In this document: positions 9,628 through 12,321 of the stretch, one piece after another | How the letters are laid out: each line of letters opens with the position of its first letter | How positions within the stretch are numbered: position 1 is the stretch's first letter | Virus record (IMG/VR): IMGVR_UViG_3300040946_000130 | Span: 1 to 35,444 of that record | Origin: a virus | Reading direction: 5' to 3' (one strand) | Length of the DNA stretch: 35,444 nt | Position numbers and translations under genes: made by a program | The notes under the pieces: model-generated | The model's database searches: none | Seen by the model: the letters and a program-made list of their open reading frames with translations, nothing else | Told to the model about the DNA's origin: nothing

Positions 9628-9921
9628 ATGACAAAATCCGAACTCATTGCAACCATCCGTAAACTGGTCGCCGACCGCCGGGCATGGTGGTCAGGGCTCA
9701 GCGTCGCCGACCGCAGGGCATGGTGGTCAGGGCTCAGCTACGCCGACCGCTGGGCATTGTGGTCAGGGCTCAGCGACGCCGACCGCTGGGCATTGTGGTC
9801 AGGGCTCAGCGACGCCGACCGCAGGGCATGGTGGTCAGGGCTCAGCGACGCCGAGCTTGAAGATTTTCCGGTATCGGTACTGGAGTCAATCAAAAAGGAT
9901 TTAGAAAGCAGGAGTATTTGA
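9628..9921 (+). CDS. Protein built of five 12-residue Trp-rich repeats
   Basis: 97 residues from ATG at 9628-9630. After a helical N-terminus (TKSELIATIRKLV), residues 14-73 are five tandem copies of a 12-residue unit approximating V/D-ADRRAWWSGLS, encoded by five exact-length 36-bp DNA repeats at 9667-9846. Copies differ at the first residue (V, V, Y, D, D) and at RA versus WA and WW versus LW. A sixth unit begins (DAE) and then degenerates into a unique acidic C-terminus. The spacing of Ala, Trp and Leu suggests an amphipathic helical array. No family is recognised. Copy number could vary by slippage. Confidence 0.65.
   Translation: MTKSELIATIRKLVADRRAWWSGLSVADRRAWWSGLSYADRWALWSGLSDADRWALWSGLSDADRRAWWSGLSDAELEDFPVSVLESIKKDLESRSI
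9667..9846 (+). repeat. Five tandem 36-bp repeats
   Basis: Units begin at 9667, 9703, 9739, 9775 and 9811. The core GGTCAGGGCTCAGC is identical in all five, and the few differences lie in the first third of the unit and the GGCATGG/GGCATTG position. The unit is a multiple of three, so gain or loss of copies keeps the reading frame. There are no spacers, so it is not a CRISPR array. Confidence 0.95.
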
Positions 9922-10607: not shown

Positions 10608-11021
10608 ATGATCGACAAAGACAAAGCTGCAGCGTTATTCGCCGACGGTGCGAGCACCGCCGCGGTCGCCCGAGCGTTGGGCATCAGCGAGTACAAAGCT
10701 AAAAAACTGAAGCCAGAGACCAGCCAGCCAGAGACCAGCCAGGAAGAGCCGGAAGCCGTGGCCCCGGACACGGCTGAGGGCCTGGTGTGGCCGATCGCGC
10801 TCGAGGTTCCCCGCGGAAATCTCGACAGGTTAATCGAAACGCTGGACCCCGAGGATCTCCAGAACGCCGTGATGCAAATGGAGGGTCCCGACAAGGCCCA
10901 GATCCTTACCTTCGTGCTGCAAAACCGCATCTGGAAGCTGAGCGAAGCGACGGCCCAGACGGATTCCGAACCGAGGACCCATGAGACGCAAAAAAGTGTT
11001 GCTGCTCGTCGACCAGGATGA
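10608..11021 (+). CDS. Helix-turn-helix protein
   Basis: 137 residues from ATG at 10608-10610, with GAGGA upstream; a TTG four codons earlier overlaps the SSB stop and is less likely. Residues 5-30 read AALFADGASTAAVARALGIS and continue EYKAKKLK, a typical HTH of the resolvase or transposase type. A linker with a short direct repeat (KPETSQ/QPETSQ) follows, then a folded region (GNLDRLIETLDPEDLQNAVM, then KAQILTFVLQNRIWKLSE). It could regulate early transcription. Its end overlaps the receiver gene by 41 bases. Confidence 0.6.
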   Translation: MIDKDKAAALFADGASTAAVARALGISEYKAKKLKPETSQPETSQEEPEAVAPDTAEGLVWPIALEVPRGNLDRLIETLDPEDLQNAVMQMEGPDKAQILTFVLQNRIWKLSEATAQTDSEPRTHETQKSVAARRPG

Positions 11022-11403
11022 GAACGCCCTCTCCATTTTGAAGTTCCTTCTCGAAACCAACGGATACCGCGTGCTCGCAGCCACCGGCGGTAAAGAGGCG
11101 ATCGCCATGTTCGCCGCGACGCCGGTGGTCGACATGGTCCTGGCCGCGGCCTTTATGAATCCCATGAACGGCGAACGCCTGGTGGCGCGCCTCAAGCAAA
11201 TGCAGGCCTACGTGCCGATGGCCATCATGAGGGAGACAGGAGACAAGCCCAGCGATGACTTCGTCGCCGATCGCTGGATTTCCCGCTCGACCGCGCCGGC
11301 GGTGCTCCTAGACCTCGCCAAAGTAATGTGCGCGCGCAAGCGGGGGCCGCGCAAGGGAGCCTGGCGAGAGATTACGGCCTGGATTTCCTTGGTTTCCACA
11401 TAA
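10981..11403 (+). CDS. CheY-like receiver domain lacking the phospho-acceptor Asp
   Basis: 140 residues from ATG at 10981-10983 with GAGGACCC upstream. The fold is clear: beta1 KKVLLLVDQDE, helix NALSILKFLLETNGYRVLAA, beta3 VVDMVLAAAFMNPMNGERL and beta4 YVPMAIM. However, the usual DD pair in beta1 is D11-Q12, the phospho-acceptor at the end of beta3 is Ala56, the switch Thr/Ser position is Arg or Glu, and the conserved Lys is replaced near Arg102. It therefore cannot be phosphorylated in the usual way. A basic tail (ARKRGPRKGAW) follows. Such pseudo-receivers can bind kinases or other receivers constitutively. It sits directly before the replication initiator. Confidence 0.75.
   Translation: MRRKKVLLLVDQDENALSILKFLLETNGYRVLAATGGKEAIAMFAATPVVDMVLAAAFMNPMNGERLVARLKQMQAYVPMAIMRETGDKPSDDFVADRWISRSTAPAVLLDLAKVMCARKRGPRKGAWREITAWISLVST
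11393..11400 (+). promoter_or_regulatory. TTTCCACA octamer upstream of the initiator
   Basis: A copy of the octamer seen in the divergent control region, ending four bases before the end of the receiver gene and reading in the direction of the initiator gene. It differs from the DnaA-box consensus TTWTNCACA only in the first base of the nonamer (GTTTCCACA). Confidence 0.5.
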
Positions 11404-11412
11404 GGCTGTGAA

Positions 11413-11463
11413 TTGCACCGATCTATTTCCTTGACTATGTAACGCTCCACCGTTACGGTAACG
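11413..11463 (+). promoter_or_regulatory. Initiator promoter with overlapping GTAACG operator sites
   Basis: TTGCAC at 11413-11418, a 17-base spacer and TATGTA at 11436-11441 form a promoter candidate. Overlapping and following it are GTAACG at 11439-11444, CGTTAC at 11451-11456 and GTAACG at 11458-11463; the last two make a 15-base perfect inverted repeat with a single central base (11450-11464) ending two bases before the ATG. The same hexamer recurs inside the initiator gene, so the initiator may bind here and limit its own synthesis. Confidence 0.55.
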
Positions 11464-11466
11464 GCC

Positions 11467-12321
11467 ATGTACAACAAAATCTTCACCAAGATCCTCGACT
11501 CAAGCGTTTGGCTGGAATCGACGCCCACGCGCATCGTCTGGATCACACTGCTGGCAGCAATGGATGAGGTAGGGTTTTGTCCATTCGCAGCTGTGGGCAA
11601 CGTTGCGTCCCGTGCGCGCGTAACCGCTGAAGAGGCGCGAGACGCCATCGCTACACTCGAAAGCCCCGATACCGCCGCCCCCCACCAGGAACACGAAGGC
11701 CGACGGATCGAACGTGTTCCTGGTGGGTGGATCGTCATCAACGCCAAAAAGTACCGAGACATTGTGACCAGAGCCCAAGCCCAGGAGACGACGCGCCAAA
11801 GAGTGAGTCGTTTTCGGGAGAAAAAGCGTCTCGCTGGTAACGGTGGTGTAACGCAAGGTAACGCTGTGACGACCGTGACGGTGGAAAAGCCGTCCGGTAA
11901 CGCTGTCGGTAACGCTCCTGTAACCCCATCAGAAGCAGAGGCAGTTACAGAAGCAAAAACAGAGGGGGAACGCCCCCCTTCCCCCCAGCCAAACCCGGCC
12001 TCTGACCCCGACGACTTCAACCAAGACCCCGAGGCTAATATCCCTGAGGGAATGGCGATCCTGCAGTACGCTGGCTTCGTGCTTCAGCAGGCCAGCATTC
12101 CGGCTGGCTACGCCCTCAAGGTCAAAACCGGCGACACGATCGAGATGCTGGCCAAAGATGAGGGCTGCACACTCGCTGTTGCAACGAAGCGCCTGCTGGA
12201 CCGCATGCGCAACGCGGGCCCGCAAAAGTGGAATTTTTGGTTGCAGGACGGAGGATGGAAGCAAGATGCTGGCATGGACGCGACCGAAAGAGCTTTTCTC
12301 TACGGAGTTCCCGATGACTGA
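11467..12321 (+). CDS. Replication initiator (lambda O-like role)
   Basis: 284 residues from ATG at 11467-11469. Residues 1-110 (MYNKIFTKILDSSVWLESTP, then TRIVWITLLAAMDEVGFCPF, VASRARVTAEEARDAI and the wing-like GRRIERVPGGWIVIN) match the winged-helix N-terminus of phage replication proteins of the O/DnaT-related type. Residues 124-165 are a low-complexity linker (GNGGVTQGNAV, SGNAVGNAPV) whose DNA holds the iteron-like repeats. The C-terminal part (residues 195-284) includes AKDEGCTLAVATKRLLDRMR and WNFWLQDGGW and may contact the loader encoded next. Like lambda O, the origin appears to lie within the gene. It overlaps the next gene by eight bases. Confidence 0.75.
   Translation: MYNKIFTKILDSSVWLESTPTRIVWITLLAAMDEVGFCPFAAVGNVASRARVTAEEARDAIATLESPDTAAPHQEHEGRRIERVPGGWIVINAKKYRDIVTRAQAQETTRQRVSRFREKKRLAGNGGVTQGNAVTTVTVEKPSGNAVGNAPVTPSEAEAVTEAKTEGERPPSPQPNPASDPDDFNQDPEANIPEGMAILQYAGFVLQQASIPAGYALKVKTGDTIEMLAKDEGCTLAVATKRLLDRMRNAGPQKWNFWLQDGGWKQDAGMDATERAFLYGVPDD
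11837..11926 (+). repeat. Iteron-like GTAACG(C) repeats, probable replication origin
   Basis: Direct repeats GTAACG, mostly GTAACGC, start at 11837, 11848, 11858, 11897 and 11909, with GTAACCC at 11920. Neighbouring copies are 10-12 bases apart, about one helical turn, in two groups of three. The 33-base interval between groups holds two degenerate copies, GTGACG at 11866 and 11875. All copies face the same way. The A-rich stretch from about 11930 to 11965 (AGAAGCAGAGGCAG and on) could be the unwinding side. Same-facing, phased repeats within an initiator gene parallel lambda ori in gene O. Confidence 0.65.

Follow-up and report, generated by a model that had tools for sequence, protein, structure and literature searches.

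A probable replication origin with phased iterons and a hexamer array inside a phage initiator gene

The origins of most phages are unknown, and the locus discussed here raises the question of whether one of them can be recognized from repeats that lie inside a gene. The locus belongs to a viral sequence of 35,444 nucleotides (IMG/VR record IMGVR_UViG_3300040946_000130), and we call this whole stretch, at its full length, the window. A preliminary description pointed to direct repeats within a replication initiator gene and took them to mark an origin. Repeats of this kind may be kept as DNA, or they may be the by-product of a repetitive protein. Our conclusion is that positions 11837-11964 are very probably a phage replication origin of the lambda type, lying inside the initiator gene and working by the mechanism proposed below. 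As far as sequences can carry the point, comparison among relatives shows that the iterons, an operator, and a hexamer array beside the iterons are selected as DNA.

The gene and its repeats in the window

The features of the locus are these:

11431-11459, plus strand: possible promoter (TTGACT at 11431-11436, 17 bp, TACGGT at 11454-11459)
11439-11463: probable autoregulatory operator (GTAACG at 11439-11444, plus strand; CGTTAC at 11451-11456, minus strand; GTAACG at 11458-11463, plus strand)
11467-12321, plus strand: initiator gene, an open reading frame of 284 amino acids; relatives of its N-domain match replication-initiation PHROG families
Protein of this gene, as modeled: winged-helix N-domain (residues 1-122), disordered linker encoded by the putative origin (about 123-187), helical C-domain
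11837-11863, plus strand: iteron group 1, GTAACG at 11837, 11848, and 11858 (spacing 11 and 10), conserved in relatives
11866-11880, plus strand: degenerate iterons, GTGACG at 11866 and 11875
11897-11925, plus strand: iteron group 2, GTAACG at 11897 and 11909, GTAACC at 11920 (spacing 12 and 11)
11929-11964, plus strand: hexamer array TCAGAA GCAGAG GCAGTT ACAGAA GCAAAA ACAGAG, the probable strand-opening region

Searched against Pfam and PHROG, the window protein itself has no match. Of 48 members of its family, however, 11 fall into the PHROG 'replication initiation protein', 10 into 'primosomal protein', 3 into 'replication initiation O-like', and 2 into 'DnaD-like helicase loader'. The genes downstream in relatives include DnaB-like helicases (7) and DnaC-like loaders (3); no helicase or loader was recognized among the window's own downstream neighbors. 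These family matches and neighbors support the view that the gene belongs to a family of replication initiators. In an AlphaFold2 model residues 11-122 mostly have pLDDT above 90 and form helices, a two-strand wing, and one long helix, while residues 123-189 fall to about 40-55. The predicted disorder coincides exactly with the iteron and array region. The matches that Foldseek finds are all weak (winged helices at E 0.17 or worse), the nearest structures being of MarR/GntR type, and a sequence search of the N-domain profile against solved structures gave chance matches only. The earlier claim that the repeats encode the low-complexity linker of an initiator agrees with both the modeled disorder over the repeats and the replication-initiation families of the relatives.

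Six GTAACG-type repeats begin exactly where the preliminary description placed them, and its two degenerate copies are the GTGACG words of the list. It also proposed a spacing of 10-12 bases. That spacing holds within both groups and is looser between them (8, 9, and 22); the successive spacings across 11837-11925 are 11, 10, 8, 9, 22, 12, and 11. Ties with GC-rich words aside, GTAACG is the window's most clustered hexamer per 90 bp that is not of low complexity, and none of 100 sequences simulated from the window by a first-order Markov model packed five copies into 90 bp of a single strand. Under synonymous-codon shuffling the gene has 5 copies where 2.9 are expected (P = 0.12), and since this is not significant the window gene alone cannot separate selection on DNA from selection on protein. 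The suggestion that GC skew would reveal an origin near 11.9 kb found no clear signal to support it, and neither the GC nor the AT skew profile switches cleanly there.

Three more copies of the repeat lie directly before the ATG at 11467, where the preliminary description overlooked them. The possible promoter overlaps them and ends 7 bp before the ATG, and self-repression is suggested because the inverted pair sits over the promoter. A simple sigma-70 scan stays below threshold at 11431-11459, so the promoter call is weak for the window alone. A possible -10 box 7 bp before the ATG (window 11454-11467) has a similar spacing in several relatives, which suggests that the initiator may be translated leaderless or from a very short leader.

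Other features of the neighborhood are worth recording. The stretch GTTTCCACA at 11392-11400 is one mismatch from a DnaA box (TTWTNCACA), and the sequence around it is also conserved before the gene in L001-L003. A small open reading frame (10981-11403) that immediately precedes the initiator gene carries a response-regulator receiver domain (PF00072, E 5e-9), which is unusual for a phage. Farther away, at 9669-9854, a 36-bp tandem repeat is present five times in a frame of 97 amino acids and encodes protein repeats of the (A)DRRAWWSGLS type.

Iterons and operator among relatives

Protein searches gave 13 related loci and then 53 in viral contigs, as well as one in a MAG from the Acidobacteria (L063), the sole relative in the genome collection. 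No named phage or plasmid carries the window's N-domain at 1e-5. After duplicates were removed, 52 genes with the same N-domain were compared. Their coding sequences contain 118 copies of GTAACG where 40 are expected and where 500 synonymous shuffles reach at most 58; these counts ignore phylogeny, the relatives are not independent samples, and the open reading frames were called mechanically. The linker (nt 360-449) holds 110 of the 118. Of 82 short gaps from one iteron to the next, 74 measure 10 or 11 bp and 7 measure 9 or 12. Gaps of 10-11 bp keep the helical phase, at the price of a reading frame that alternates between VT and xNx codons. Forward iterons accordingly stand in frame 0 (72) and frame +1 (60), with inverted copies in other frames, and the third forward frame goes unused because its TAA would close it.

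It was argued in the preliminary description that the linker peptide is a by-product of the DNA repeat and that related phages should keep the repeats while the linker protein varies. The 52 relatives bear this out, since the iterons persist at 10-11 bp, read in more than one frame and found on either strand, even as the linker they encode changes. The opposite case, linker residues kept with random synonymous codons and the DNA repeats lost, was not seen among these relatives; L012 has lost the repeats and the VT/GNA linker together. It would be possible to hold instead that the repeats and the acidic run after them are a disordered linker kept for its composition and that the repetition in the DNA is a by-product. 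The linker is indeed predicted to be disordered, the VT and GNA motifs do recur, and the shuffle is not significant in the window gene by itself. However, a spacing of 10-11 bp is no multiple of three, and a peptide kept for its composition does not account for iterons in several frames and on both strands. We return to this explanation once the codons of the array have been considered.

Not every relative has the same iterons. GTGACG-type iterons prevail in the linker of L055 and GTGACA in that of L058, and linker iterons are absent from L012, L054, L056, and L061. The C-terminal domains vary widely while the N-domain and the iterons stay together. Conversely, L001-L005 have C-domains like that of the window on other N-domains, and their linkers differ in sequence and mostly lack GTAACG arrays. 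The iteron type therefore goes with the N-domain.

The operator is found among relatives as well. Counting only the 49 with enough upstream sequence, 27 have an inverted pair GTAAYn-N4-8-nRTTAC no more than 75 bp before the start codon, where shuffles give 0.025. The pair is usually 18-19 bp long, and in 14 of the 27 TTGAC lies within 10 bp before it. Across 32 genes the share of GTAAY sites that read GTAAT in the operator follows that in the linker (r = 0.92; 0 of 5000 permutations as high). The relatives that use GTAATG are mutually only 60-66% identical and on the tree this usage takes three changes, though it may have arisen only once. The simplest explanation is that one protein would recognize both the operator and the linker iterons.

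One could go further and suppose that the repeats are transcriptional only, the protein being an autoregulator, the copies in the gene a roadblock or auxiliary operator, and replication starting elsewhere. No inverted pair is more regular than that of the operator, the nearest structures, weak as the matches are, are winged helices of MarR/GntR type, and L054 still has an operator-like pair though its linker lacks iterons. Yet the relatives match replication-initiation and O-like families and have DnaB and DnaC genes nearby, and the hexamer array described next also follows the iterons in annotated initiators of other families. We consider the transcriptional explanation improbable.

The hexamer array

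Directly after the iterons the window has six hexamers of NCAGAN type, which the preliminary description overlooked. The same order, a last iteron, TCAGA within a few bases, and then six-base units with a CA step, is present in 36 of the 52 genes, or 36 of 41 if the count leaves out truncated genes, near-copies, and genes lacking iterons in the linker. The arrangement seen most often has a final GTAAC a few bases ahead of the TCAGA array. At successive six-base positions in the relatives the frequency of CA is 1.00 (the anchor), 0.91, 0.88, 0.82, 0.62, 0.50, and 0.38; everywhere else in the first 48 positions it stays at 0.00-0.21. The encoded peptides vary and include SEAEAEA, SDTDTDT, SEAVSEAVS, SEAYAYA, and SDQDHIN. 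Over the 15 codons that follow the last iteron, 218 of 317 codons for S, A, T, or P (69%) are NCA, compared with 454 of 2522 (18%) elsewhere. The duplex stability of the array is in the 1st percentile for the window gene and at a median of the 6th percentile in 34 genes, so the region adjoining the iterons is easily melted, though moderately so rather than A+T-rich.

The function of the array would be strand opening, helicase loading, or priming, and we propose the following mechanism. The winged-helix N-domain would bind the GTAACG iterons, about one helical turn apart. The initiator bound there would form a nucleoprotein complex that opens the adjacent array at 11929-11964. Opening would expose single strands onto which the host replicative helicase could be loaded, probably through the C-terminal domain. 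At 11439-11463, over the promoter of its gene, the N-domain would bind the inverted GTAACG pair as well, and the initiator would so limit its own synthesis.

The array might instead be a set of primase start sites that primes the first strand. CTG and CTA are published start triplets of DnaG primases from proteobacteria and firmicutes (PMC5204125). The complement of the array carries CTG, or CTA in arrays of TAGAYA type, and one strand has CAG every 6 nt, or TAG in arrays of GATATA type. Against this, the array is found in both orientations, and a stability minimum fits opening equally well. CAGA, CATA, CAAA, and CAGT all occur, and a pure primase-site reading is disfavored because conservation is stronger for the CA step than for the whole CAG. 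We regard priming as unlikely to be what the array is for.

Does the array occur beyond this family? In a reciprocal search the DNA pattern of the array alone (TCAGANRCAGANRCAGANRCAGA) was used and the iterons were not. It matches at least 105 distinct open reading frames in viral contigs, and in at least 74 of them the array lies at residues 95-290. Among the matches listed, the 110 bp before the array show direct repeats of five bases that peak at lags 11, 22, and 33, with rates of 33, 21, and 33 per 1000 over a background of mostly 1-3 in flanking controls. The repeated words differ by family and include TGCTAGCA, CGCAAACGGAT, GTCAGCCA, GTCCCGA, GAAACG/CGTTTC, TCCGGA, GTGACG, and GTAACG. 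An array-like stretch follows iteron-like repeats in two named phages as well: in Acinetobacter phage Silvergun within an annotated initiator, and in Pseudomonas phage D14H within 'DNA replication protein O', whose gene precedes that for DnaB.

The array is not tied to one frame or one strand. It is read in frame 2 (QKQTQKQ, QIQIQ) in L096, L166, L169, and L173, and at least about 10 initiator-like genes have an inverted array after the iterons, encoding SVSVSV or SASASA. Since both orientations occur, the polarity of the array relative to the iterons is not fixed. As individual observations, inverted arrays (TCTGTA...) are seen in L069, L104, L117, L125, L130, L136, L156, L178, and L181, and L173 has two arrays in two frames (SDTDTDT, NQKQTQKQTQTQT) at about codon 160, with GTGACG iterons before and between them. 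Many different iteron types in phage initiators, apparently undescribed, likewise have the NCAGAN array downstream (L066-L185, L221-L337).

The codons allow a control. Where (D/E)T runs use ACA, 97 of the 118 distinct open reading frames listed have them at the initiator position, and the lag-11 signal is 32.5 per 1000; where they use ACC, ACG, or ACT, 34 of the 116 listed do, and the signal is 2.7. Among the matches listed, the ACA set falls into the PHROGs for DnaD-like loaders (42), replication initiation (37), and O-like proteins (23), families which overlap, while the other set matches mostly head proteins and proteases, with two members in each initiation family. Runs of DI follow the same trend more weakly (21 of 43 when coded by ATA, 5 of 31 when coded by ATY, among the matches listed), the ATA-coded set including many plain microsatellites. 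Because the control separates ACA from other codings, we conclude that the repeated linker peptides are a by-product of a DNA signal. The idea of a linker kept for its composition has no place for the NCA bias after the last iteron, for non-ACA runs mostly outside initiators and without preceding lag-11 repeats, or for inverted arrays that encode SVSVSV or SASASA. In its purely protein-level form it is rejected by the codon control, and we find it scarcely credible.

Replication slippage near an origin could also leave a neutral hexanucleotide microsatellite, and in some loci the hexamer repeats are perfect; simple TAGAYA repeats occur outside initiators too. However, the arrays are mostly imperfect and begin a fixed few bases after the last iteron, and they keep the CA step in many initiator families while the other bases vary. 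Moreover, ETET and DTDT repeats in other codons lie in capsid and protease genes, rarely in initiators, among the matches listed. The imperfect units, the fixed start, the kept CA step, and the codon control lead us to reject a pure microsatellite and to hold neutral slippage very improbable.

We return to a DNA signal and offer, tentatively, a wider proposal that is possible rather than established. The NCAGAN array (TAGAYA in low-GC phages) may be a general element of tailed-phage origins, a sequence-specific single-strand site read by a conserved host or phage replication factor, which lies beside any iterons in either orientation and forces linkers such as EAEAEA, DTDTDT, DIDIDI, QKQTQK, and SVSVSV. 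If iterons and array do mark the origin, sequence alone would suffice to locate origins, including those of uncultured phages. The iteron family would then name the DNA specificity of the initiator and could serve to classify phage initiator specificities, and the repetitive dipeptide linkers of many phage initiators would be by-products of DNA signals. The array also raises the question of what reads a repeated signal of 6 nt on one strand of an opened origin.

Comparison with known origins

The hexamer array appears to be undescribed so far among open papers, the literature covered here, which leaves most subscription papers aside. Bacillus subtilis oriC has the DnaA-trio, of 3 nt, and the DnaD recognition element (5'-TnnT-3'), both believed to act in single-stranded form when the origin opens and the helicase is loaded (PMC10201434). 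Like the array, these are short repeated motifs beside duplex-binding sites. However, the array matches neither published motif, as its units have 6 nt and a conserved CA step. The rep gene of the lactococcal phage TP901-1 (annotated 'experimental') shares with the window a repeated linker sequence and AT-rich, T-poor stretches. It has no clear 6-nt array, so the array is not universal.

The iteron plasmids F, P1, RK2, and pSC101 have a winged-helix Rep, phased short iterons, and an inverted pair at the rep promoter that represses. Phased short iterons and an inverted pair at the promoter are common to the window, and an inverted iteron pair in the gene's own promoter, the mark of an autoregulated iteron Rep, is found in 27 of the 49 genes. 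Helical phasing and strand opening are described for these plasmids (PMC5043065). Their iterons lie outside the rep gene, whereas those of the window are inside the coding sequence, and the window's N-domain has no match in plasmid records.

The origin of lambda (oriLambda, in gene O), like those of P22 (gene 18) and phi80 (gene 15), likewise lies inside the initiator gene. The window differs from lambda in several respects. Lambda iterons are sites of 15-18 bp about 20 bp apart, whereas those of the window are hexamers 10-11 bp apart; the inverted iteron pair over the gene's promoter is seen in the window, unlike lambda; and the window N-domain, unlike lambda O, has no Pfam or PHROG match. 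The likenesses concern the plan of the origin. In both, the iterons form the coding sequence for the linker that joins N- and C-domain, and an easily opened, T-poor stretch comes directly downstream. A further likeness to lambda is seen in several relatives of the window gene, where a helicase or loader gene is next. Lambda, P22, and phi80 all pass at once from iterons to a T-poor, CA-rich stretch, and lambda DNA opens at the stretch following the iterons (PMC5043065, PMC7466680). The framework of a lambda-type origin is already known; at the same place where lambda has an A+T-rich tract as its opening region, the window has an array of NCAGAN hexamers.
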